Assembly (NCBI GenBank): GCA_938084675.1
Contig: CALKGM010000009.1
Span: 42,347-106,346, forward strand
Length of the DNA stretch: 64,000 bases
Direction: 5' to 3'
Origin: Candidatus Poseidoniaceae archaeon
GTDB lineage: Archaea > Thermoplasmatota > Poseidoniia > Poseidoniales > Poseidoniaceae
The notes below the pieces were generated by a model. The model was not told the origin of the DNA and searched no databases. It was given only the letters and a program-made list of their open reading frames with translations. The stretch's first letter is position 1, and every line of letters starts with the position of its first letter. The translations under genes and the position numbers were made by a program. Below, in pieces: positions 3,015 to 36,283 of the stretch.

Positions 3015-6000
3015 TCAATCTTCATCATCGTCGTAATCATCATCGTAATCATCATCGCCATCGCCATCGTCATCGCCATCGTCATCCCAGTCTTCATCTT
3101 CTTCGTCGAAGGCACCTTCACCGTAGTCGATGGAAGTCTTACTGGCTACAGTAAAGACAAGCGCGAGGGTGATGATAGATAGAATCACAAAGATCCAAGC
3201 GAGCGGATTTTCACGAACTGAGTCAAACCATCCAAGATATTCACCATAGGCAATGGTCACAGCATGTTCAGCAGAGTTGTCATCATCGTTAGCTTCTGGA
3301 ATCATATTTTCTTCGTCAACCACGACGCGAACCCGGTCTACTTCCTTGGATTCCCATTTTACGGTTAATGACAATGTTTCGCCCTGATTAATTCCAGCCA
3401 CTGCGACCGTTTCGAAGGGAGTTTCATCATCACCGGCGTAGAATGAAACCATGAATTGAGTCGTTGTGTTTCCACCAGCGTTGAACACGTCGGCAGTAAC
3501 GTCAATCTTTGACCCGGGAGAAATATGGTCATCGCTCATTTCGATGTTGCTGATTCGCAATTCAGGTCCAACAGCACCTAATCGTACCCATTGTCGCTCA
3601 AAGTCCGTATCGTCTACAGCAAGTTCAGGAATCGGACTTGCTTCCGAATTTGACACCACTGGGAATTGATTTCCAGCAGCATCGTATCCAGTCAAGTAGA
3701 ATCCGACAAAGTCTCCTGCCTTGGGGACAATGGTTCCGCCTGCGGTAATATCTAGAACTCCTGTCCAGGTCACGGTTTGTCCATCTTGCTGCATTCCTAG
3801 AAGCGTTGAACCTGCACCGATGGTCATTGTACGAGTAGCATCGCGCATGACCCAATGGACCATCTGCTTGGAACCTGTGAGGTCTGCATCTTCAGTTCCT
3901 TGGAACTCAACTGGGATTTGAGTGAGGTCGTTGCTGGCAGAGATATCAATCACGTTGAGTGGAGAGATTCGACGGGTCACACGAGGTGAAGCATCGTCAA
4001 CTGTCACCTGTAGGGTCGTCGAAACCAATGTTCCGGTCATGTCTTCTCCCCGTCCTGGAATGTTTGTAATTGAAATCAAACACGTTCTGGAAGGAGAGGA
4101 CTGTAGGGTGAGGGCGGATGAGAGAGGAACTTCTACTGAATAACCACCTTCGTCCGTGAGTGAACCATCAGACCACAAGTTCTCGCCATCAAAGACCTCA
4201 ACAAGAATACCTACGTCTCGGGGAGCTGCGGTTTGGCTGCCTTCGTATACAACTCGTCCTGTAAAGGCCAAGCGGTCGTCTTTACGTACACGGCTACCGT
4301 CTGCAACTGGCCCAACACGGGGTTCACTGATATCTTCAACTTCAAAGTCGGTAGGTGAAAGCATCAAGTCATTTTCAACCCTAAAGGTGTGCTCAAGAAT
4401 TAAAATTCGAGACGGATCTGGACTTCCAAGTTCTTTGTAAACAAGAGCAACGTCACCCATTTCTTCATCTGGCCAATCCCAACTGATGATAAAGTTGAAT
4501 TCCAACATAATCCACGGTAGACCCGATTCATTGGTCGTTTCAACCATGCTGCTTGTTGGGAGCAAATTGAGGTAAGGTGAATCGGACCAGAACGTGTTGT
4601 TCAAACCGGAGTACGAGATGCTCTGAGCATCTCGTTGAGGGTTTGGTCCTTCAAAATCAAAGACTAATGAGATGTACTCGAAGTCAATTGCAGTGTTAGC
4701 GTCAATGAATCCAAGTGAAATGGTTTGATGCATTCCAGCATAGACTGCTTCGTCATCTTCGTGACCAAGCCATTCAAGTCCAGTGAATACCGCTGCTGAA
4801 TCTTTTCGTGTCCGGAAGGTTGCATCATCGTACGAGAACCCTTCTTCCGATTCAAACTTGAGAAGTTCGTCTTCAGCATTCATGACCGTGTAGTGGAGCG
4901 GGTTACCGGCTTGGTCGCCACCGTCCCAATAATACGAGACTCTGCCCATATTGGGGTTACGAGAAGTGTCAATGTTTGTAATGAACCACTTTGAACGCTT
5001 CTCCGTGTTATTGGTCACAGTTTTGCTAGCATATTCTTCCGGGTCAGCCACACCGTTTCGATTCAAATCATGGTCTGCCTCAACCCAATACTTGAGTGTG
5101 AGTTCCATAGGATGGCCCACCTTGTCTTCAACAAGAACACGAATAGGCTGCTCGGTCGTAGCGGCTTCGTAAGATCCTTCTTCAGGAGCGACTGCCCTTC
5201 GTTCAGGATGTGTAGCATCGATCTTGAACGTGCGCCGCCAGTCAGCGTTAGGTTGCTGGACGTGGTCCGGGTTTCGTTCGTTATAGGTCTGTACTTCGTA
5301 GGTCATTCCATCAGGGACATCGATGTTTGGAAGATCAATCGATACGAAGAACGAACCGTTGAAATTCGTGGTATCCCGAGCGGTACTCTCAACGTAGCCA
5401 TTGCGTGAAACTCGTACGTCAAAAGCACTGTCTTTTGGAGCGTCTTGAGTATCTTGGAACCACATTGCGCCGGCAAAATGAATCTGGTCACCTGCTGCAA
5501 CCCACGATTGGTCAGGGGTGTCAAGAGAAGTAACTCCTCCATCATTATCACGAACCTTCAGCCAACCTAACCCAAAGGAGCGGTTGACTTCAAGACCCAA
5601 TTCAGATGTGAGGGGGAGAGGAGCGTAACCCGCAGTTCCACTGTCGTCAAGGCATCCCGTTCGGAAGCGGACGTTGCTTTGGTCTGGGAATTCACTTGTG
5701 ACGTAAAACATCCAGTGGATTTCCAAAATCCCGTTGCTCTCAACTGAATATGAATTTGAATCCATGACAACATACTGGCCTGGGTCGTTAGGAGCAGGGA
5801 ATACATCCCCGTACTGCCAGGAAAGGATTGGATTGTTAGCCATAGAGTTGGTTCGTAGTTCAAGCTCTGCACTCACCATTGAAGTAGCACTTTCTCCGAT
5901 AATGTGGCGAGTAACAACTTCGTAAGGCGTAATGCGCTCGTGAAGAATCTCGCCTTCAGGGATGGAAATATCAAGATTCACAGTTTGCATAATGTACGTA

Positions 6001-14031: not shown

Positions 14032-17000
14032 ATGACCACGAAGGCCTGTAGCCTAGCCTTCGTCACCCTCCTACTCCTCTCATCACTTTCAATCGTCATT
14101 CAACCGCATGACAATCCTACTGACGAATCAAAGGAATCCGAGTTATCTGATTTGTTTGACGGATTTTTTGTTGGCGAGCATGAAGATGCGTGGAACATGA
14201 CTCCTTGGCCTACCGTTGCTGTCCCAGAGGGGTTTAGTTACATGAGCGTCATTGATTACAGCGATGTCGGAGTTCTCATCAACAACCTTTCAGAGGAAAG
14301 TAGAACCATTGGTTGGGCATTTGTTGCCGCACGAAATATCTCTCTTGACCGGGTATTTATCTTCAATCAGAGCGGCACTCCAGTGGGAGAAACCATCAAT
14401 CGGGAGAAGTTTACAACGTATTTTGCCGAACCCTTCTTGGAAATGCTCCGTAACAGTTCCTCGGCTTCATCCCTCAATTATTTGGTGACTACCAAAGGAA
14501 TTCCACTGAGAATCTCAGGTGGGGCCGACAAGGCAAGTTTTGACCAAGAACTTGCTCTTTTGGGTGGAACCTATAACAGTTCAATCGGAGCAAATAACTG
14601 GTTCAATCACGGCTATGGGCCGCTTGCTGGCAAGGAAATGAATTCCTTCACGAGAGATGAATACGGCTTCTTCCTTGTTACACGATTGACAGGCTACACG
14701 GTGGACACCGCATTGGAACTGATTGAACGGGCGAATAACAGCCTAGGGGAACGAGGGACATTCGTATTGGACTTGGCAACAAATCGAAATGGTTCAGGAT
14801 ACAAGTACTGGAATGACGACCTTTATGCCGCAAATTTGACCTTGAACGGCAGCATGGACATACCCGTGATTTTTGATGAGGAAAGTGAGTTTATCACCAA
14901 CATTTCCAACGTCATGGGATATGCCTCTTGGGGAAGTAACGATGGAAATTGGGATACGAATCGAATTCCAAACTCGGGGTTTGACACAACTGATTCCGCA
15001 TGGGGCATGGGCACCCGATATTGGGAACACACACTGCCTGCAGTCAATGCAGATGAGTCATTCTCTTGGAACTATCAAAGCCAAACCAAACAAGGCGGCT
15101 CCGGTGCATTAGAAGGAATTCTAGACACGAATTGTTCGGGCCAAGATGGAACAAATACCGCCGGGCTGCTCGCAGAATACTTCGATAACAGTGGAATCTC
15201 TGTCGGCAATACCATGCCCGATTTAACCACCCGCCAACCCAATGCTATTCGCGTTGAACCAAATCTTGATTGGACGTCAAGAGGATCCGCGTATCCTGGA
15301 TTAGATTCTCGCTTCAATACGCACTGGAGTGGACGGTTTAGTGGAATCGTCACCGTTCCAGAGACAGGAAATTGGACCTTCTACCTCGAAAGCGATGATG
15401 GAAGTGAACTTTGGCTCAATCATTCGAGTTTAGTTCAAAACCATGGGATGCACGGCATGAGAACCGTTTCAAATTACATCAATCTAACAGCCGGAGAACA
15501 TGACCTTCGCGTTGAATTCTATCAAGGCGGGGGGCCGCATGGACTTCGTTTATTCTGGGAGGGGCCCAATCAATCAAAAGTGATTATACCGAACTCTGCG
15601 TTGAGTGTTTCATCCCTAACAGTACCTCAATCCGAACACCTTGAACATCGTTGGGATTTTGAAGAGGGAACTGGCAGTCAAACCAACGATAGTTCAGGAA
15701 ACGCACATCTTTCCTTTTACGGCATGAATTCTACAAACTGGGAAGCATGCCCTGGGGGCTCCTGTTTGATGTTTGACGGCCAGGATGATTACATCGAAGT
15801 CGATGTTGATGATTGGTCTGGTAACTTCACTGTGAGTCAGTTCGTAATGACGAATACCACCAATCAACCCTCATATGCATCCACCTTCGCATCTGGAGAT
15901 GCAGCAGGCTCGAATGCATCATTCCAACACATGATGCAATCAGCAGGATGGTACCTTCATAACGACCAAACCAATCTCTTTGATGTTGTAACTGTTGAAC
16001 GATGGGCCCACCTCGCAACGGTGTTTGACAATGGAACCGTTCGCCAATACTTCAACGGTCAGTACGTTGGAAGTACGGTTGCGTCTCCAGGCGACTTCAA
16101 TAATTTTGATCTTTATCGCATGGGAGTGAACCGAGCAGGGTCTTCCTTTTTTGAAGGCAAAATTGACAGGGTACTCGTCTATTCTACTGCGCTTTCACAC
16201 AGCGAAGTACATCAAATCTCACGGGAGGTCCTGTCAAACTGCCAGGTCTATTCGGGCGCTAATCAAGAGATAACAACCATCTGGCAGAACGTCACGCTCC
16301 CCGAAAATCACACCTCCCATGCATGGCTCTTGAGCTCATATGGAATGATTGAAGGTCCAATCGGAGGAACCTACACGCTCCAAGTAGAAGCTCGGGACGC
16401 CAGCGGAACTTTGCTCTCGACCAACAGGTCCACCGGTAAAACCTTCGAAACCAACTGGAACAGCGACACATTACGGTTCCGGCCACACCCTCAAGCGGTC
16501 TCGTTCAACATCAGCATTGAAGTGATGATAACCGGCTCTTCACAGGAAGGTTCCTTATTCCTTGATACGTTGAAATTGAGGGCGATTCGCCCACATATGG
16601 ATTGGGTCAACGGGTCAATTGCTGAAACTGCAGTATCAACAGGCGGTCGGTCATTCAATTGGAACACAGCCTACGGTCAATCACTGGTCGCTGACCTGAT
16701 CGAAGACGGTGTGTCGGGAGTCAAGGGCTATGTCTACGAACCCTACCTTACCGCAGTTGGCTATCCTAGTGTCTTGCTACCGGCTTATGCATCCGGATAC
16801 AACCTCGCAGAGAGCCACGCTGCTGCTAGTACGGTTTCGGGGTGGATGGGTGTGGTGGTTGGTGACCCGAAAATGGCAGCCTATGCAGACCTCTTTCATG
16901 ACATCAATATCGTAGACGCACGCGTCATAGGGGACGTGAATGTTGGTGAACCTACCTTCGTCCAGGTTATTGTTGAGAATCTCGGCATGGCTCCTTCAAA

Positions 17001-19332
17001 TGGCTCTTTGATGATTCAGTCTCGAATTGGAAACGTCGTCCTTAACGAATCATCTCTCGCCATGCCTTCAGGTGACCAGTACGGCAGCAGAACAATTCTC
17101 AATCTCACTTTTGAGCCAATACAGTCAGGATTTTTCGAGATTCGCATTCGGTATACCAATACCTCTCATGAGCAAAACTTTGGGAACAACATGATTTCGC
17201 TATCCCTTTTTGCTAATGATGCCCCCAAAATCATCAATGCATATTGCAATGCACCCACTCTCACACGAGGTGGTTATACTGTATGTACCGCGCAGGCTCA
17301 AGATGACAGCAATGTAACCGCTGCAACAATGAGTTGGCAGATTGTTCAAGAAAATGAATCTGTGAATGAAAGTCTCTGGATTCAGCAAACTATGGGCAAA
17401 ATAGACAGTTCCCGCTGGCAGGCAACACTCACTGTACCAACAGACGTAGAACTTGGAGAAATCGCATTACAAATACGGGTCTATGACATCGCAAACATGA
17501 GCGACGAAGCAACCTACCTGAATGTCACACGAATTGTTGACGCTCCACGAACATGGTATGGGCCTCATGTATCGGACATAGACCCACTCTCATGGAACCA
17601 TGCATCAACTCTACCTAACAAACCCAATGAAGGTCTTTTGCGGCACCGTTTGTACACCTTGACCAGTTGTGCTACCGACGTGGATTTTGATGTCATGCAA
17701 GCACCTCCGATATTCTCCAGTTCACGAGGGACCATGACCAACACGACATCTGTTGTACTTCATGACGCAAACGTATACTGTTACAGTTCAAATCTATCAC
17801 TTGAGTTGGGCATGTCTCTTGAGGATATTGAAATTCAAGTCAGGTCATATGACGGGTCATTGTTATTGGAACGCACACTATGGATTGATGATGTAAATCC
17901 CGAAGTCTCACTCTTTGTCGCAGACAGCAACGGTACTGCTCTTGACGCTGTGGTAGGGCATGGGAGGGAGCAACTCATCGTTCAGGTTTCAGATATTGAT
18001 GATCCAATCACCCCATTCATTGGCGATGTCATGGTGTACTGGCCAGGCAATGAAATGTTCCAAATTCCATTGGATATTCCTCAGGGAGTAGATACGGTGA
18101 CCATTCCTCTTCGTCAAATTCCAACGGCATTAGAATCCGGTGAACTCGTCATTGACATAACGGGTAACGGCCTCAACGGAGGAACTGCCGAGGCAACGTT
18201 GAGTATTCCCTTCGAGTTCACCCTACCTGAGGTCGTCTTCTTCGATGTATGTGATGATGAGGGGTCAATTCGCAACATGTCGTTTGGTCAAACGGCAACA
18301 TTGGTCGTTGGAGTACACAGCGACCGTCCTCTTGAGACTCCAAGTGGCAGACTTAGTCAATCGGGCCGCTCAATAGTAGCCCCATTAACGGATGAACCGG
18401 CGTGGGGAGAAGGCATAGCTCCTGATGCCTGTATTATTGATGAGAACTCAATCGATATGGAATGGTATCATTTCCGCATCAAGGTCGACACTTCGTTTTC
18501 CGATGGCCCCGGCAAGATTGTCATGAACATACGAGATGTTGACCGGCTGCCGACATCGCTCACCGTTGAGATGATGTTTCAGCATGCACCAACAATCCTT
18601 GGGGAATTTAATTCTTCAACCGCCATGCCTGGGGAAGACATTCTCGTCACATTACCTGTCGGAGATGAGGACGGCCTTCACACAGTCATTTGCTCATTCA
18701 CTATACACGACCCCTTGGGAACAATGCTTACGCAATCGGCAACAATGGCAGGAGAAGAAATGTATTTTGAAGGTGAATTGAGTTGGATTTACCCTATACC
18801 CGGCTCTCTAGCAAATCAAACGCTTACCCTAGAGGCCGGATGTCTTGACGAGCAAGGGCTCCGCGTCACTCAAACAGCCAATATTACCGTAGGCCCTCAA
18901 GAAGCGTGCTTGAATTGTACGTCGAATGATTTAACCCAAGGTGAATCCAAACAGCAAGATGATGCCCGTTCTTTACAGACAGTTGCGCTGGTTGGTTTGC
19001 TCACCCTAACCATTATTCTTGGAGCAGTAGGATTTGCACTGAGAACCAACAAAAAATCTACCGAAGAGCTTGATTGGAATGTGGAAGAAAACACCGGACA
19101 TAATGTCGAGTCCTTGTTTGACAACGATGACCTCATGGATCAAACCGAGGCTGAATCAAAGCAGGAAAATCCAACAGAATCAAACACTATTCCTGAAGGC
19201 TGGACGCAAGAACAGTATGTGCAGTGGCTCGATGGCCCAACTCCCGACGGATGGACAACAGAGCAATGGGCAGACTATGTAGCAGAGCACACGGCTAAAT
19301 TGGACTCCCATGATATTGGAACGGAAGGATGA
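14032..19332 (+). CDS. Giant surface protein: TIGR03790-like domain interrupted by PA14 and LamG modules
   Basis: The protein has 1766 residues. A signal peptide (CSLAFVTLLLLSSLSIV) is followed by a TIGR03790-like domain: the strand NYLVTTKGIPLRISGG, FDQELALLGG and LVTRLTGYTVDTALELI. Its sequence stops at about residue 305 (GYASWGSNDGNW) and resumes at about 870 with NWNTAYGQ..., GYVYEPYLTAVG, NLAESHAA and WMGVVVGDPKM. Between lie a PA14-like domain (LLAEYFDNSG...WTFYLESDDGSELWLN, about 375-520), a LamG/concanavalin-like domain (HRWDFEEGTGS, about 540-730) and another beta domain. CARDB-like and other Ig-like domains follow. One transmembrane helix (about 1648-1671) leads into an acidic tail with a repeated GWTxEQ motif. 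Carbohydrate or surface binding is inferred from the PA14 and LamG modules. Confidence 0.85.
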   Translation: MTTKACSLAFVTLLLLSSLSIVIQPHDNPTDESKESELSDLFDGFFVGEHEDAWNMTPWPTVAVPEGFSYMSVIDYSDVGVLINNLSEESRTIGWAFVAARNISLDRVFIFNQSGTPVGETINREKFTTYFAEPFLEMLRNSSSASSLNYLVTTKGIPLRISGGADKASFDQELALLGGTYNSSIGANNWFNHGYGPLAGKEMNSFTRDEYGFFLVTRLTGYTVDTALELIERANNSLGERGTFVLDLATNRNGSGYKYWNDDLYAANLTLNGSMDIPVIFDEESEFITNISNVMGYASWGSNDGNWDTNRIPNSGFDTTDSAWGMGTRYWEHTLPAVNADESFSWNYQSQTKQGGSGALEGILDTNCSGQDGTNTAGLLAEYFDNSGISVGNTMPDLTTRQPNAIRVEPNLDWTSRGSAYPGLDSRFNTHWSGRFSGIVTVPETGNWTFYLESDDGSELWLNHSSLVQNHGMHGMRTVSNYINLTAGEHDLRVEFYQGGGPHGLRLFWEGPNQSKVIIPNSALSVSSLTVPQSEHLEHRWDFEEGTGSQTNDSSGNAHLSFYGMNSTNWEACPGGSCLMFDGQDDYIEVDVDDWSGNFTVSQFVMTNTTNQPSYASTFASGDAAGSNASFQHMMQSAGWYLHNDQTNLFDVVTVERWAHLATVFDNGTVRQYFNGQYVGSTVASPGDFNNFDLYRMGVNRAGSSFFEGKIDRVLVYSTALSHSEVHQISREVLSNCQVYSGANQEITTIWQNVTLPENHTSHAWLLSSYGMIEGPIGGTYTLQVEARDASGTLLSTNRSTGKTFETNWNSDTLRFRPHPQAVSFNISIEVMITGSSQEGSLFLDTLKLRAIRPHMDWVNGSIAETAVSTGGRSFNWNTAYGQSLVADLIEDGVSGVKGYVYEPYLTAVGYPSVLLPAYASGYNLAESHAAASTVSGWMGVVVGDPKMAAYADLFHDINIVDARVIGDVNVGEPTFVQVIVENLGMAPSNGSLMIQSRIGNVVLNESSLAMPSGDQYGSRTILNLTFEPIQSGFFEIRIRYTNTSHEQNFGNNMISLSLFANDAPKIINAYCNAPTLTRGGYTVCTAQAQDDSNVTAATMSWQIVQENESVNESLWIQQTMGKIDSSRWQATLTVPTDVELGEIALQIRVYDIANMSDEATYLNVTRIVDAPRTWYGPHVSDIDPLSWNHASTLPNKPNEGLLRHRLYTLTSCATDVDFDVMQAPPIFSSSRGTMTNTTSVVLHDANVYCYSSNLSLELGMSLEDIEIQVRSYDGSLLLERTLWIDDVNPEVSLFVADSNGTALDAVVGHGREQLIVQVSDIDDPITPFIGDVMVYWPGNEMFQIPLDIPQGVDTVTIPLRQIPTALESGELVIDITGNGLNGGTAEATLSIPFEFTLPEVVFFDVCDDEGSIRNMSFGQTATLVVGVHSDRPLETPSGRLSQSGRSIVAPLTDEPAWGEGIAPDACIIDENSIDMEWYHFRIKVDTSFSDGPGKIVMNIRDVDRLPTSLTVEMMFQHAPTILGEFNSSTAMPGEDILVTLPVGDEDGLHTVICSFTIHDPLGTMLTQSATMAGEEMYFEGELSWIYPIPGSLANQTLTLEAGCLDEQGLRVTQTANITVGPQEACLNCTSNDLTQGESKQQDDARSLQTVALVGLLTLTIILGAVGFALRTNKKSTEELDWNVEENTGHNVESLFDNDDLMDQTEAESKQENPTESNTIPEGWTQEQYVQWLDGPTPDGWTTEQWADYVAEHTAKLDSHDIGTEG

Positions 19333-29578: not shown

Positions 29579-30610
29579 ATGCGGCGGGATAATCAAGGTG
29601 ATTCCATGGTCGCGGAAGATACGGTATTCTCTGTTCTCTATGATAAATTCATGTTTTGGTCTATTCTCGTCGGAATTCTGACCTTCGGGTGGATGTTCCT
29701 CGCTATGCTGCGATACCGCGACGGAGTTGAGCCAGATACCACCGACATTGACCATATTGAGGTGGGGTCATTCCCAGTCGACCGGCACAATACACCACTG
29801 GAAATCGTGTTTTACCTCGCGCCAACTGTCATTGTTTTGTGGCTTATTGTGCTCGCTGTGTCCTCCAACGCCGCAGTATGGGTCATCCCTGCTGATGATG
29901 AGGCACACAACATGAAAATCACTGGAAAACAATGGTTTTGGGACTTTGAATACGAAGACAGCCTTACGTGGGAAGATGATGAAGCACTTACCTCAATCAA
30001 CGTTGACTGGCCAAATCTAGGCAACCTCTATGTTAACGCCAGCGGTTCAGAAGCGACCAATGTCACCGTCACCGTGGAGGGAGTTGCAAGCGACTATGCC
30101 ATTGACCAACTCACCTCTTCCTTGGTACTTGATCCGAGAGAAGAAAACAGTGGAATTGATTATTTTAATCCAACATACTACTCGTTCATTGAGGTGACTA
30201 ACGCAGACGGAAATGTCCTTCATACCTGGATGCACATCCCAGTGGATCACAAATTCTCATCCGCAGCAAATGAACCCATGATTCTACCTTGTGACACATC
30301 CGTAGTATTCAACATGAAATCACTGCCTAGCGACGAATCAAACCCAAATTATGTCGGAGTCCAGCATTCATTCTGGCTCCCTGAGTGGGGTGTCAAAGAA
30401 GATTTGGTTCCTGGCCACGCAGAGGGTACATGGATGACCGTTATGCCTGATGACCCTGGAATGTTCCCCATCAAATGCGCAGAATACTGTGGAAATCAAC
30501 ATGCTTACATGACGGGTGATGTCAAGATTGTCGCTGCGGAAGGTATGGATTGCTCAGAAGACACCGGTGTGAAGAAGACCGGAAATTCTGAAGACGGAGG
30601 TGACTACTGA
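29579..30610 (+). CDS. coxB: Cytochrome c oxidase subunit II (CuA-containing)
   Basis: This subunit receives electrons at its CuA centre and passes them to subunit I. Two transmembrane helices (about 25-47, and 75-95 LEIVFYLAPTVIVLWLIVLA) precede the extracellular cupredoxin domain. QWFWDFEYE is the aromatic electron-entry region. CuA ligands are present: the His in GVQHSFWLPEWG and CAEYCGNQHAYM (C-x-E-x-C-x3-H-x2-M). Between the aromatic segment and the His there are about 110 residues, an enlarged insertion. ATG 29579 follows AAGGAGGGG; ATG 29606 is an alternative. It is the first gene of the operon, and its stop overlaps the coxA start as TGATG. Confidence 0.95.
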   Translation: MRRDNQGDSMVAEDTVFSVLYDKFMFWSILVGILTFGWMFLAMLRYRDGVEPDTTDIDHIEVGSFPVDRHNTPLEIVFYLAPTVIVLWLIVLAVSSNAAVWVIPADDEAHNMKITGKQWFWDFEYEDSLTWEDDEALTSINVDWPNLGNLYVNASGSEATNVTVTVEGVASDYAIDQLTSSLVLDPREENSGIDYFNPTYYSFIEVTNADGNVLHTWMHIPVDHKFSSAANEPMILPCDTSVVFNMKSLPSDESNPNYVGVQHSFWLPEWGVKEDLVPGHAEGTWMTVMPDDPGMFPIKCAEYCGNQHAYMTGDVKIVAAEGMDCSEDTGVKKTGNSEDGGDY

Positions 30611-32943
30611 TGCGTGGGCGGGTTTCAATCATCTTGGGAGTCCTTCTTCTTGCGCTCGTTGCAACACCACAATTTACTGCTATTCCATCAGGAATCGGTT
30701 CTTCTGGTGACCAAGGTTGTTCTTGTCACGGTGGAGCATCACCGGATACAAGCGTCGTTGTCGACGGGCTTCCTGAAGTATACAACGCCAGTGAAACCTA
30801 CACCTTCACCGTGACCGTCATCAACGATGTCATGGAACTCCATGACGGCGGTGGCGACGACTGGAACGGACGAGCTGGTGGATATCGAATTTTGACAACT
30901 CACGGAAGTATTGTTGCTATCCCTAACACGCTTGGACAAGATATGGACGGTGGACTCACCCATACCACGGAAGCAAACACTGTTCGTTCATGGACGTTTG
31001 AATGGACTGCTCCTGCAGCTGATGATGAAAACGTTGAGATGACCATTTACGGAAACGCTGTAAACGGTGGTGCCGGCTCCGGAGGAGACTATTGGAATGA
31101 AGCAAGCGTTTCCATTGCTGGAATCAACGCTGGAGCACTTGCTCCAAGTGCAAGCGCACTGGTCATCTTCATCACCGCCATCGGTCTTGCTGTTGGACTC
31201 ATCTTTGTTGGAATTCTCTGGGTCTTTTACCGACGCTCACCGGATACGTTCACGATGCAGCGGTTTTGGGATTTCCTCAAGCCATGGCTCACCACGACAG
31301 ACCACAAGGAAGTTGGGATCATGTACTTCTTGTTCGGGTTCTTCTTCTTCCTTGTTGGAGGTCTACTTGCTCTCTTGTTCCGAATACAACTCGCAGTGCC
31401 TGAGAACGATTTCCTCACCTATGATGAGTACAATTCCTACTTTACACTGCACGGAACGACAATGATTTTCCTTGCCGCCATGCCAATGATTGCTGGATTC
31501 ATGAATTACGTCCTTCCGCTGCAAATTGGAGCAAAGGACTTGGCGTTCCCAAGAATCAACGCTATGGGACTTTGGCTCCTCGTCTTCTCAACACCACTCA
31601 TCTTTGCTGGAATCTGGTCTGGGGAAGCTGCCGACATTACATGGGTCATGTACCCTCCTTATTCTTCACTCACGGAATCGAACATGGGCGCTGAACTTGC
31701 GAATTACGGTTCAAACCCAGGAACGACGGCGTTTATCTCAGGTATCCTCATGCTTGGTGCATCCTCAACACTCGGTGGTGTAAACTTCATCACCACCGTA
31801 TTCACCATGCGTGCAAAGGGAGTTACATGGATGAAAATGCCGCTCTTCTCATGGTCGGTCTTCATCAGCGTGTTTATGCTCTACATGTCACTTCCAGCAT
31901 TTATCATCGGCGTCGCTTTCTTGCTCTTTGACCACACCATTGGAACCACTTTCTTCGTAGCAGGTGGAGACCCACTGCTCTTCCAGCATTTGTTCTGGTT
32001 CTTCGGTCACCCAGAAGTCTACGTCGTGATTGTACCTGCATTCGGTATTGTATCCGAAGTTCTTGCAACTTCTGCTCGCCGTTCCATCTTTGGATACAAG
32101 TCAATGGTTTTCGCCATGGCCGGTATTGGAATCGTTGGATTCGTAGTATGGGGGCACCATATGCTCACCTCGGGTATGGACCCGTTCTGGCGAGCCGTCT
32201 TCATGATCACAACAATGTTCGTAGCGATACCAACGGGTGCTAAAATCTTCAATTGGCTTGCTACCCTATGGGGCGGTTCGTTGGTCATGAAGACCCACAC
32301 ACTTTGGTCACTGGGCTTCATCGTGACCTTCACGCTAGGTGGAATATCTGGAATGTTCTTCCCTGTTTCTGGTATGGACATTCACTTCCATGATTCATAC
32401 TTCGTCGTAGCTCACTTCCACTACGTCTTCATCGGCGGAACTGTCTTCGCACTGTTTTCCGGAGTGTACTACTGGTTCCCCAAGGTCACAGGCCGAAAGA
32501 TGAACGAAACACTCGGCCTCTGGCATTTCCTCGTTGGCTTTTCATCTTACAACGCAGCGTTCTGGCCAATGCACGCTCTTGGAATCATGGGGATGCCCCG
32601 ACGTACCCACAGTTACACCGTTGATTCAGGATTTGCGGAGTACAACATGGCAGTATCGACCTTCGCATTCATCTTCGGAATCAGCCAAATACTCCTGCTA
32701 TGGAACATCATCTACTCCTCACGCCGAGGAGAACCCGTGGGCAAAGACCCTTGGGGTGGATGGTCACTTGAATGGTCCACAACTTCACCACCACCTACTC
32801 CTTCGTTCCACGAGAACCCTGTACAAGGTGACATGAACGAACGCTACGGACATCACAAACCAAAGGGTGAGAAACTCATTGACAAACTGATGAAAGCCGA
32901 ACCGAAAGGAATTGTTGTCGGCAAACTGGAGGGAGAAGAATGA
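30610..32943 (+). CDS. coxA: Cytochrome c oxidase subunit I fused to a secreted N-terminal CSCH domain
   Basis: The catalytic subunit reduces O2 to water at heme a3-CuB. At 777 residues it is about 200 longer than usual. A signal peptide is followed by a roughly 150-residue domain with GDQGCSCHGG and a beta-sandwich (TYTFTVTV, SIVAIPNTLG), resembling Reeler/choice-of-anchor V domains that normally carry CxxCH; a membrane anchor (about 180-203) follows. The oxidase core is complete: HGTTMIFL (heme ligand), GAKDLAFPR (D channel), FGHPEVYVVIVPAFG (CuB His, Tyr and Glu), GHHM (CuB), IPTGAKIFNW (K-channel Lys) and HDSYFVVAHFHYV (heme ligands). It is an A-type enzyme. It overlaps coxC by 4 bases. 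Confidence 0.95.
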   Translation: MRGRVSIILGVLLLALVATPQFTAIPSGIGSSGDQGCSCHGGASPDTSVVVDGLPEVYNASETYTFTVTVINDVMELHDGGGDDWNGRAGGYRILTTHGSIVAIPNTLGQDMDGGLTHTTEANTVRSWTFEWTAPAADDENVEMTIYGNAVNGGAGSGGDYWNEASVSIAGINAGALAPSASALVIFITAIGLAVGLIFVGILWVFYRRSPDTFTMQRFWDFLKPWLTTTDHKEVGIMYFLFGFFFFLVGGLLALLFRIQLAVPENDFLTYDEYNSYFTLHGTTMIFLAAMPMIAGFMNYVLPLQIGAKDLAFPRINAMGLWLLVFSTPLIFAGIWSGEAADITWVMYPPYSSLTESNMGAELANYGSNPGTTAFISGILMLGASSTLGGVNFITTVFTMRAKGVTWMKMPLFSWSVFISVFMLYMSLPAFIIGVAFLLFDHTIGTTFFVAGGDPLLFQHLFWFFGHPEVYVVIVPAFGIVSEVLATSARRSIFGYKSMVFAMAGIGIVGFVVWGHHMLTSGMDPFWRAVFMITTMFVAIPTGAKIFNWLATLWGGSLVMKTHTLWSLGFIVTFTLGGISGMFFPVSGMDIHFHDSYFVVAHFHYVFIGGTVFALFSGVYYWFPKVTGRKMNETLGLWHFLVGFSSYNAAFWPMHALGIMGMPRRTHSYTVDSGFAEYNMAVSTFAFIFGISQILLLWNIIYSSRRGEPVGKDPWGGWSLEWSTTSPPPTPSFHENPVQGDMNERYGHHKPKGEKLIDKLMKAEPKGIVVGKLEGEE

Positions 32944-34328
32944 GTAGCGGAGAAGCGCACGTGGAAAACAGCATCTGGATGCGAGCTGTCTTGATGGGCA
33001 GTACCTTCCTCGTCATTGGTATTCTTGCCTTTGCTACCATGGGAGTTGGCGTAGCCAACATGAGGCACCACGCCTACGAAGAAGCCGTGCACGAGTATGA
33101 TGATGCAAAGCACGACTACGAAGAGGCAAAACTCAGTTATGAGAACGCGAAAGCAAACAATGCATCGACCGAAGAAATTGAAGCCCTCAAGGCCACCAAG
33201 GACGCTCTCAAAGACATAAAGGACGATGCACACCATCACGAAGTTGAAGCACACCTTTCCTACCTCACTTGGAGAACTGCCGGAATTACAATTCTCTTGA
33301 TGTGTGTCACCTATGCCAGTTTCATCGGCCTTGGTGGTTTTGTCAACTCAATACAACCTGAAGAAGACGATAGTCACGGGGCTTCCAGTTATGGAGGAGA
33401 TGACCATGAACATCACGGATCAGCTTCACCGATCGTTTTCGCACTTGGTATCATGTTGTTCCTGATGGGATTCCCTGAATTCCAGGCGACACTAAGCGAC
33501 ATGCTCTCAGGTAATGAAGCCGAATTAGGCGGACTTGGGCTTAGCATGTTTGGACTACTCGTTATCGTACTTGGTGTTTCAAACTGGTGGAGAGAAGACC
33601 TACCGTTCATCGGCAATGGAGAGCAGATCGCAACCTCAGCTCCATTTGAAGGTCAACACATTCGTAAAGCAGGTTTGTGGGTCTTCATTATGTCTGAAAT
33701 CATGGTGTTCGCCACCTTCTTTTCCTCCTACCTCCGTATGCGTACCGAATGGTGCACAGGGTGGCAGGTTGAAGCAGGAAACTGTGAACAAGTAGACATG
33801 TTGACCGCATCCGACTTCCTTCGCCCAGACGGTGCAGAACTCGGAGGATTAGGTGGACAGGGTGACTTCATGACCCTCCTCCCTGGAGCGATCAACACCT
33901 TTGCACTCATCGTGTCATCCTACACCATCGTCCTCGCATTGAAGACGGCTAAGAATGCGAACTGGGAAGCTCCAACCGGCTTCATGGGCAAACTCATGCC
34001 AACCAAGAAAGCCGCTGTCCGAAACTACCTCCTAGCAACCCTCTTACTCGGTTCAATGTTTATCGTTCTGAAGTTGATTGAATGGAGCCACTTGGTTGCT
34101 GAAGGATTTACCATCGGAACCCAGGCAGGTAGTATCTTTTACATCTCTACTGGGGCTCACGGCCTCCACGTCTTCATCGGCCTTTTGGTCATGCTCTACC
34201 TTGTGTTCAAAGCGGACACGGTTGAGTTTAACGAGGACAACGCCCAGGGTATCGAATACTTTGGATTGTACTGGCACTTTGTTGATTTGGCGTGGGTCGT
34301 TATCTTCCCAGCCTTCTACTTGTATTGA
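32940..34328 (+). CDS. coxC: Cytochrome c oxidase subunit III with N-terminal charged coiled coil
   Basis: Subunit III supports the stability of the oxidase and proton uptake. The C-terminal half (from about residue 230) is typical: GLWVFIMSEIMVFATFFSSY, GAINTFALIVSSYTIVLAL, STGAHGLHVFIGLLVMLY and GLYWHFVDLAWVVIFPAFY. At 462 residues it is far longer than common forms (200-290). The first transmembrane helix is followed by a charged helix of about 70 residues (HEYDDAKHDYEEAKLSYENA, EIEALKATKDALKDIKDD) and by extra helices before the canonical core. It overlaps coxA (ATGA) and is 9 bases ahead of coxD. Confidence 0.92.
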   Translation: MSSGEAHVENSIWMRAVLMGSTFLVIGILAFATMGVGVANMRHHAYEEAVHEYDDAKHDYEEAKLSYENAKANNASTEEIEALKATKDALKDIKDDAHHHEVEAHLSYLTWRTAGITILLMCVTYASFIGLGGFVNSIQPEEDDSHGASSYGGDDHEHHGSASPIVFALGIMLFLMGFPEFQATLSDMLSGNEAELGGLGLSMFGLLVIVLGVSNWWREDLPFIGNGEQIATSAPFEGQHIRKAGLWVFIMSEIMVFATFFSSYLRMRTEWCTGWQVEAGNCEQVDMLTASDFLRPDGAELGGLGGQGDFMTLLPGAINTFALIVSSYTIVLALKTAKNANWEAPTGFMGKLMPTKKAAVRNYLLATLLLGSMFIVLKLIEWSHLVAEGFTIGTQAGSIFYISTGAHGLHVFIGLLVMLYLVFKADTVEFNEDNAQGIEYFGLYWHFVDLAWVVIFPAFYLY

Positions 34329-34337
34329 GGTGAGAAC

Positions 34338-34712
34338 ATGGGAGAACACGAAACACACGGAATTATTGAAAACATCTTTGACGGACTGCTTGGAAAGGAC
34401 ATCTACTTCTGGAATTTTATCATACTGATGGTCTTTACCTTGTTTGAGGTCGCCGCTGTCTTCTTCACAGGCATACCTCTCAAAGCGGTATGGGCCATCC
34501 TTATCGGGGTTGGTATCGTCAAAGGATACGGTATATCTGCCTATTTTATGCACTTGAAGGGCGACCCGAGAATCTATACCAGAACTGCTTTATTCCCAGT
34601 CGTGTTTGTTATTCTGATGCTTTGGGGAATTGGTTTGTCCAACCCTGAGGGAGTCACAGGACTTCCAGCATGGTGCACACCACTTTCAGCAGATTATGCA
34701 ACAAACCGTTGA
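34338..34712 (+). CDS. coxD: Cytochrome c oxidase subunit IV (caa3 type)
   Basis: This 124-residue subunit has three transmembrane helices: NFIILMVFTLFEVAAVFFTG, VWAILIGVGIVKGYGISAYFMHL and LFPVVFVILMLWGIGLS. The pattern VKGYGISAYFMHLKGD matches the family's usual VKa..vv.yFMHLk. It lies 9 bases after coxC and 11 bases before the Sco gene, within the oxidase operon. It is a structural accessory of the membrane complex. Confidence 0.87.
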   Translation: MGEHETHGIIENIFDGLLGKDIYFWNFIILMVFTLFEVAAVFFTGIPLKAVWAILIGVGIVKGYGISAYFMHLKGDPRIYTRTALFPVVFVILMLWGIGLSNPEGVTGLPAWCTPLSADYATNR

Positions 34713-34723
34713 GAGAGATTTCA

Positions 34724-36283
34724 ATGAACACGAATCGAGCCTTATTGGCTGTTCTACTCACCTGTCTCTTGCTTATGCCGGCTGCTGCCTACAAAGGCAG
34801 CAAACTCGCTCGAAGCCCAGTTGAAGACTTTGTACTCACCGACCAAATGGGTGATGAGTTCTCGTTCTATGAGGACAGCAATGAGGTCACAGTTGTTGCT
34901 TTTATCTTCACCCGATGCCCAGATGTATGCCCGGTTATCACTCAGTTGTTGAAAAGTGTGGATGGGGAACTCACAGACACCGAAAAAGACGATGTCACCT
35001 TCATTTCCATTACTGTTGACCCACGCTATGATTCACCTGAGCGCTTGAAGGAGTTCACCGATATTCATGGAGTCGAGTGGCCTCATCTAACGGGAACAAC
35101 AGAAGAGTTGGCTCCTGTCTGGAAGACGTTTGGTGTGGTCGTTCAAGAGAGCGTCATTGATGCTCACGTAATGGATTACCACCCCGGTGAAGCCTCTGTA
35201 ACCGTCGTGAACACAACTGGAAATGCTTCTACACACATGTTTGGCCTTTCGGGTTGGACCTTGACTGAAACCCTTGCGAACCAACATCAAATCGACATCA
35301 ACGCCTCTCTGTCACAATACGGACATTATGTCACCGGAATCGGTGGCGAGGAAGCACCTGGAGATTCATGGTATTGGGAACTTAATGTTTGGAATCAATC
35401 AACCAACCTCTGGGCAGCCTCACAAGTTGGTATCGATGATATCGATGCCCTTCAAGAGAACCAACATATTGCTTGGATGCCCTCAAGCCTCAACCGCTCC
35501 AATCTCTCCGCACCACTCGTCGAAGACGAAGCAAGTATGACCATCATGTGGAACAATGGAACTGAAGTTCAAGCAAGTATTGACACCTTTGATGGATACC
35601 ACATCACGAAAGGTGCACTCAATGATGCAGGCGTCAATGTGACCATCGCTGACTCATCGTATGGCCATTACATGACTTCTCTTGGGGACGAAGATGCTCC
35701 CGCCGATAGTTCTTGGTGGTGGAGCCTCTATCAATGGAACTCTACCAATGCTACATGGGAGACTTCCCCTGTTGGGATGGACGGTATTGTGGAACCAAAG
35801 CATATTGCTTGGGCTCCTTCAATTGTAAATGCGTCAGATATACCTGCCCCAGTGAAGAATTCAACTGAAGAGGTTTGCAGTGGCCATGGCTGGGAAATGG
35901 GATCCGGAGAAAGTCTGCACTGCATGTGTGATGACGGCTATACATGGGATGAAGGGGACAGAACCTCCTGCGTTGAAGAAGTCAGTGAAGATTTCAATGT
36001 TGGCCACTCAACCATTACCTACATTATCAATGAAAACCGTCAGCCGCTCGTCGTCTGGACGGGGGATAATTGGAAGGTTCCTGACTTCACTGCAGACCTT
36101 AGGGAAGTCCTCGAAAATGACGGCCTAGGCGATAGTGACCCTCTTGAAACACCAGGCATGACCTTCGTTCTGTCTACTCTAGCACTCTGCCTCGCTGTCG
36201 TTGTTCGGCCCTCAAAAGAGAACCGTGGTGAGACAGTGAACAAGCGAAAGGGGAAAAAGAGGGAAACCTCCCGCCTCCAATAA
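34724..36283 (+). CDS. Sco-family copper chaperone interrupted by two repeats and an EGF-like module
   Basis: Sco proteins deliver copper to the CuA site of subunit II. ATG 34724 (MNTNRALLAVLL) starts a signal peptide; the track start is inside coxD. The Sco thioredoxin fold carries FTRCPDVCP (Cys65 and Cys69) and FISITVDPRYDSPERL. After about residue 153 come two similar repeats of about 95 residues (SQYGHYVTGIGGEEAPGDSW...HIAWMP and SSYGHYMTSLGDEDAPADSS...HIAWAP), then an EGF-like Cys module (CSGHGW...CMCDDGYTW). NVGHSTITYIINENRQP then resembles the missing Sco strand with the metal His (428), followed by DFTADLREVL. A C-terminal transmembrane helix and a basic tail end the 519-residue protein. 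It is last in the oxidase operon. Confidence 0.85.
   Translation: MNTNRALLAVLLTCLLLMPAAAYKGSKLARSPVEDFVLTDQMGDEFSFYEDSNEVTVVAFIFTRCPDVCPVITQLLKSVDGELTDTEKDDVTFISITVDPRYDSPERLKEFTDIHGVEWPHLTGTTEELAPVWKTFGVVVQESVIDAHVMDYHPGEASVTVVNTTGNASTHMFGLSGWTLTETLANQHQIDINASLSQYGHYVTGIGGEEAPGDSWYWELNVWNQSTNLWAASQVGIDDIDALQENQHIAWMPSSLNRSNLSAPLVEDEASMTIMWNNGTEVQASIDTFDGYHITKGALNDAGVNVTIADSSYGHYMTSLGDEDAPADSSWWWSLYQWNSTNATWETSPVGMDGIVEPKHIAWAPSIVNASDIPAPVKNSTEEVCSGHGWEMGSGESLHCMCDDGYTWDEGDRTSCVEEVSEDFNVGHSTITYIINENRQPLVVWTGDNWKVPDFTADLREVLENDGLGDSDPLETPGMTFVLSTLALCLAVVVRPSKENRGETVNKRKGKKRETSRLQ

Follow-up and report, generated by a model that had tools for sequence, protein, structure and literature searches.

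A Poseidoniales (Marine Group II) archaeon has, directly behind its oxidase genes, a gene for an unusual Sco-family protein whose Sco domain is interrupted: the break falls within the "Sco loop", immediately ahead of the histidine of the copper site, and about 265-270 residues lie between the two halves. Sco proteins are small, with one compact domain that holds a CxxxC-Xn-H copper site. The interruption is supported by conservation, profile tests, the secondary structure of an AF2 model and natural near-relatives without the insert, and the same grounds support the original prediction in placing the Cys half of the fold far from the His half and in locating the insertion in the loop before the His. 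Among relatives the loop is a cassette site, where the insert has been lost, shortened or swapped. We consider it probable that the protein is still a cox-linked Sco copper chaperone/thiol reductase, whose loop-inserted cassette would act as a glycosylated docking or helper arm. Throughout most of one ocean archaeal class, entire domains separate the two halves of the copper site in sequence, and the interchangeability of the cassette makes partner recognition and copper handover testable by its removal or swapping.

A Sco domain in two halves

The window (the whole stretch of DNA analysed, 64,000 nucleotides) contains a coxB-coxA-coxC-coxD cluster in which the interrupted Sco gene comes fifth, its frame starting 12 nt past the stop codon of the coxD-like gene. 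The cluster reads as follows:

29579..30610, + strand: coxB (oxidase subunit II), presumably the Sco client; CuA motif CAEYCGNQHAYM (translation)
30610..32943, + strand: coxA (subunit I), choice-of-anchor V domain at its N-terminus (NCBIfam CtaD_CoxA 6.7e-190, choice_anch_V 9e-23)
32940..34328, + strand: coxC-like (subunit III), annotated by inspection of translation and gene order
34338..34712, + strand: coxD-like (subunit IV), a small membrane protein, annotated by inspection of translation and gene order
34724..36283, + strand: Sco protein in interrupted form, 519 aa; coordinates include the stop (open frame; orthologues placed alike in related genomes)

Within the interrupted Sco protein we distinguish these parts:

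34724..34789, + strand: signal peptide-like N-terminus, residues 1-22 (read from the sequence; AF2 helix 3-17; alignment)
34790..35167, + strand: Sco N-terminal half, residues 23-148 (PF02630 at 5e-24; invariant residues)
35189..35521, + strand: insert repeat 1, DUF4430-like, residues 156-266 (repeat alignment; same AF2 order as repeat 2)
35522..35857, + strand: insert repeat 2, DUF4430-like, residues 267-378 (repeat alignment; AF2 order)
35876..35971, + strand: 4-Cys EGF-like module, residues 385-416 (invariant in 30 relatives; sub-threshold EGF-type matches; pLDDT <50)
35993..36118, + strand: Sco C-terminal half, residues 424-465 (profile of Sco C-termini, joined-halves tests, insert-less near-relatives)
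36152..36202, + strand: hydrophobic helix near the C-terminus, probably a membrane anchor, residues 477-493 (sequence; AF2 helix 479-493)

In the alignment, relatives from MGIIb carry a lipobox in place of the signal peptide-like N-terminus and are missing the C-terminal hydrophobic helix. The choice-of-anchor V domain of CoxA, with its GCSCHGG motif (window 30610-31170), is another extracellular module of the same operon. We rejected an artefact, whether from gene fusion or from a frameshift, because GC content is even along the gene and the same architecture recurs in other Poseidoniales, in dozens of independent assemblies.

The Pfam family SCO1-SenC (PF02630) recognises the window protein at 85.2 bits, against a curated cut-off of 22.8, and the match covers residues 34-148 only (profile 2-115/134), ending short of the part that bears the ligand His. 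This N-terminal half carries Cys65 (34916), Cys69 (34928), D99-P100 and D103. We made a profile of the C-termini of 20 further Sco proteins, uninterrupted or with short inserts (paralogues from the same genome, paralogues from MGIIb whose TSP3-like inserts are short, and the Thermus and human proteins). It matches residues 425-464 at E=6.6e-9; among 2000 shuffles the lowest E value was 0.006. When residues 1-148 are joined to 420-466, the SCO1 score rises to 94.8 bits and profile coverage is restored to 2-133/134, compared with 85.0 bits for the contiguous native stretch and 84.0 bits (profile 2-111) for a control in which 1-148 was joined to a segment of the insert. The top PDB match, 2k6v, likewise improves from 3e-11 to 7e-15 upon joining, and its alignment then passes through the His. 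Cys65, Cys69, D99-P100, D103 and the ligand-type His428 (36005-36007) are invariant in an alignment of 30 proteins, which gives the protein the CxxxC-Xn-H pattern of the family and bears out the earlier identification of His428 as the conserved Sco His. The interrupted Sco proteins of MGIIb (L024-L035) have Leu for Pro after the second Cys, turning CPDVCP into CPDICL.

The AF2 model, computed from 43 sequences (mean pLDDT 75, pTM 0.48; pLDDT 33 from the single sequence), has strands at 431-435 and 441-446 and a helix at 452-465, as expected for a Sco C-terminus, with pLDDT 75-88 in this block; over residues 390-428, His428 included, pLDDT is <50. A Foldseek comparison with the PDB aligned mainly some 120 columns with Sco chains and did not bridge the insert.

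That His153 might complete a contiguous Sco domain, leaving 424-465 to fold as a separate one, was the outcome named beforehand as fatal to the split-domain reading, and we give it next to no credence. All that speaks for it is that residue 153 is a His; this His is not conserved among the 30 aligned proteins and is Gln in the nearest relatives. The segment that follows is strand 1 of the first insert repeat and so does not close the Sco domain, whereas residues 425-464 are recognised as a Sco C-terminus. In the split domain, copper would still be bound by the core through Cys65, Cys69 and His428, presumably in the service of CuA of CoxB.

The gene's setting bears on whether the protein is still a chaperone. 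The window genome has two more Sco paralogues elsewhere, and an erstwhile chaperone that now works as a cell-surface thiol-disulfide oxidoreductase, or as a redox sensor with a Sco fold, would fit with these paralogues, with the thioredoxin-type fold and with the 4-Cys module that the chain also carries; thiol-disulfide oxidoreductase activity is in principle open to Sco proteins (PMC6696091). We nevertheless regard this as improbable, as the His ligand is invariant although useless for a plain oxidoreductase, and the cox cluster holds the interrupted copy, neither paralogue, next to an oxidase that carries a CuA motif. Orthologues of the interrupted gene sit in the cox cluster in most of the related genomes looked at.

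Repeats, cysteine module and sequons of the insert

The insert begins with two tandem repeats, which had been noticed at the outset and given a length of about 95 residues; the tandem arrangement holds, and the length has to be corrected to about 111 residues each, as the first strands had been missed. Repeat 1 accordingly starts immediately after His153. The two align with each other at a score of 208, where shuffled sequences average 33 +/- 6 (z=28), and AF2 gives both the order strand-strand-helix-five strands. Recent duplication at the DNA level was rejected, the DNA repeats being only short and degenerate, and a sequence search of the window genome found no further copies of the insert outside Sco genes. 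The repeats resemble DUF4430 (PF14478), whose domains we take to have a beta-grasp fold. The window protein scores 12.3-14.9 bits against a cut-off of 23.8; 6 of the 30 relatives match at E values up to 0.5, the best being 9e-5.

Between the repeats and the Sco C-terminal half lies a cysteine module in which C385, H399, C400, C402 and C416 are invariant in 30 relatives. It had been described as EGF-like; the Cys module is real, and the resemblance to EGF is a loose one, given four conserved cysteines rather than six and a best match (cEGF) of 16 bits against 26.6. Full membership of EGF and of DUF4430 was rejected, their scores falling under the Pfam cut-offs. A 4-Cys module of this kind (HCMCDDGY) also occurs in an unrelated secreted protein of 818 aa (L038 5287-7740), and the module therefore seems mobile.

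The insert is rich in N-x-S/T sequons, with 12 (N163, N167, N193 and N224 among them) where composition predicts 3.3, a number that none of 2000 shuffles attained, while the Sco core of the window protein has zero. Across the 30 proteins, sequon density is 3.9 per 100 residues in the insert and 0.55 in the Sco core. A homologue of the oligosaccharyltransferase STT3 is present in the window genome, and going by its sequons the insert is probably N-glycosylated. This STT3 match, the genome's only one (G000:C4:66435-67403), lies inside an unusually long open frame of 3210 residues. A probably secreted protein of 1766 aa elsewhere in the window (14032-19329) shows a milder excess, 44 N-x-S/T sequons against 19.7 expected.

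In the mechanism that we favour, the Sco core would remain a copper chaperone/thiol reductase for CuA of CoxB, and the cassette of two beta-grasp-type repeats and the 4-Cys module would face outward, attached where the His-bearing hairpin hinges. This arm, probably glycosylated, would keep a partner at the copper site, be it CoxB, a copper donor or a reductant; the cassette might conceivably dock on CuA of CoxB itself. Binding of the partner would shift the His loop and so favour copper transfer, and the arm, by tugging at the His hairpin, may gate release. The cassette might thereby replace separate helpers, either PCuAC, which was not found in the 21 genomes searched, or TlpA, whose domain type forms the cassette of a sister order (see below).

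Variation at the cassette site

The first search yielded 38 loci, all in assemblies labelled marine euryarchaeal or Poseidoniales-type. With the 4-Cys module and Sco C-terminus as query, 89 of 97 related genomes were matched, some of the weaker matches being other Sco genes or other module-bearing proteins. The cassette comprises one to three repeats, with the 4-Cys module present or absent (L098, for example, has one repeat and no module), and the spacing from second Cys to His follows its content: 101-136 residues in proteins with a linker only, 238-298 with one repeat and the 4-Cys module, 359-373 with two repeats and the module (359 in the window protein) and 434-493 in a genus that has repeats and no module. 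Some loops hold linkers rich in His and acidic residues, with 7-17% His (L087, L088, L093, L102, L121). Some close relatives differ in having or lacking the cassette. Between L118 and L121, of the same genus, 129/155 positions are identical on the N-terminal side of the cassette and 36/42 on the C-terminal side, and the stretch between is 169 and 51 residues long, respectively; for L083 and L087 the corresponding figures are 71/114 and 35/43.

MGIIb genomes also carry a second Sco gene directly upstream of the interrupted copy, with a TSP3-like insert (DxDGDGVADGFDxC) at the same place in the loop (L024 5989-6693, L030 5980-6708, L034 5992-6711 and others). Locus L089 has tandem short Sco-like genes (4049-4648 and 4656-5231), the second with CDDVCL and with VHLQPVYIL instead of the usual V-x-H-S/T motif.

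The most telling cassette is found in family f3, by context another order of the class (a sister order), Marine Group III, and in one genus of family f2, where the loop holds the 4-Cys module and a complete TlpA/ResA-like thioredoxin domain. The carriers are L114-L117, L130 and L094, with cox-linked genes at:

L094 2059-3546: cox-linked Sco with TlpA/ResA-like cassette
L114 5197-6651: the same
L115 4094-5506: the same
L116 801-2255: the same
L117 3429-4898: the same

In L114 a second thioredoxin-type domain with CxxC (FFHTNCPHC) stands between the Sco halves; Thioredoxin_8, Thioredoxin and AhpC-TSA all exceed their cut-offs, the PDB matches are YkuV, StoA and ResA, and a ResA model matches residues 254-391 at 3e-15, under that model's own cut-off. 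A bacterial Sco-reducing domain type has here been placed in the very loop that moves on copper binding, and we regard it as the best hint that the cassettes have helper functions, which suggests that such functions have been built into the copper site itself.

On a tree of Sco cores (63 rows, with bootstrap not fully settled) the thioredoxin-type cassette arises once, while the five linker-only proteins need five changes, of which well-supported branches force at least three; loss or collapse of the cassette has therefore probably been repeated. As its content is highly variable and it has been lost at least three times, a strict function of the cassette is doubtful. The chief rival to a docking arm starts from this: the Sco domain is interrupted and the cassette has no role in copper transfer, the exposed loop being permissive and its modules a glycosylated spacer or shield that would fit a cell surface open to the surroundings. 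The sequon excess of the insert would suit such a loop, as would the occurrence of very unlike modules at one site and their repeated collapse to plain linkers. Set against this, most genomes keep the cassette, the residues of the 4-Cys module are invariant, and the domain found in f3 belongs to a type with a known action on Sco, so that we judge the spacer reading rather unlikely. More speculative than the docking arm, and offered tentatively, is a wider view of the Sco loop as a dedicated plug-in site for partner functions in CuA assembly, where engagement of a partner would move the His hairpin and gate release; docking arm, copper-gathering His linker and TlpA-type reductant would then be alternative insertions between the Cys and His ligands.

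Comparison with known Sco systems

In the literature searched, mostly papers available without subscription, we found no report of a domain inserted in the Sco loop. A sample of the wider phylum, taken outside the class, gave few strong SCO1 matches, in short frames, and weaker ones in various frames; plasmid-borne bacterial Sco genes, among the 30 matches listed, were each matched in one piece. Bacterial Sco proteins have as partner PCuAC or another small copper protein (PMC9145763); PCuAC was detected in 0/21 genomes here, by a search that did pick it up in controls.

The insert has its own parallels. With DUF4430 its repeats share the strand-strand-helix-strand order and the region of a W-x-W motif, yet they remain under the Pfam cut-off and are located inside another domain. 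With EGF-like domains the 4-Cys module shares a CxC-x-DGY-like core, though it has four conserved cysteines instead of six and all its Pfam matches are sub-threshold.

What sets Sco apart from thioredoxin is the His-bearing "Sco loop", which turns into a beta-hairpin upon copper binding (PMC6696091). Like Sco1, SenC, PrrC and YpmQ (PF02630), which are copper chaperones serving CuA of cytochrome c oxidase, the window protein has the CxxxC and D-P-x-x-D motifs, a His ahead of the last strands, thioredoxin-type secondary structure and linkage to cox genes; unlike theirs, its Sco loop accommodates additional domains totalling about 265 residues, and 359 residues separate the second Cys from the His, in place of 86-87 in Thermus and human. 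In Bradyrhizobium, TlpA reduces ScoI and CoxB, and recognition of the loop governs transfer to CuA (PMC6696091). The f3 proteins resemble that pair in having a TlpA/ResA-like domain, which is physically within the Sco protein, and differ from it in that both belong to one polypeptide, known from its sequence, with the domain set into the Sco loop, a place that beta-grasp-type repeats occupy in the window protein.
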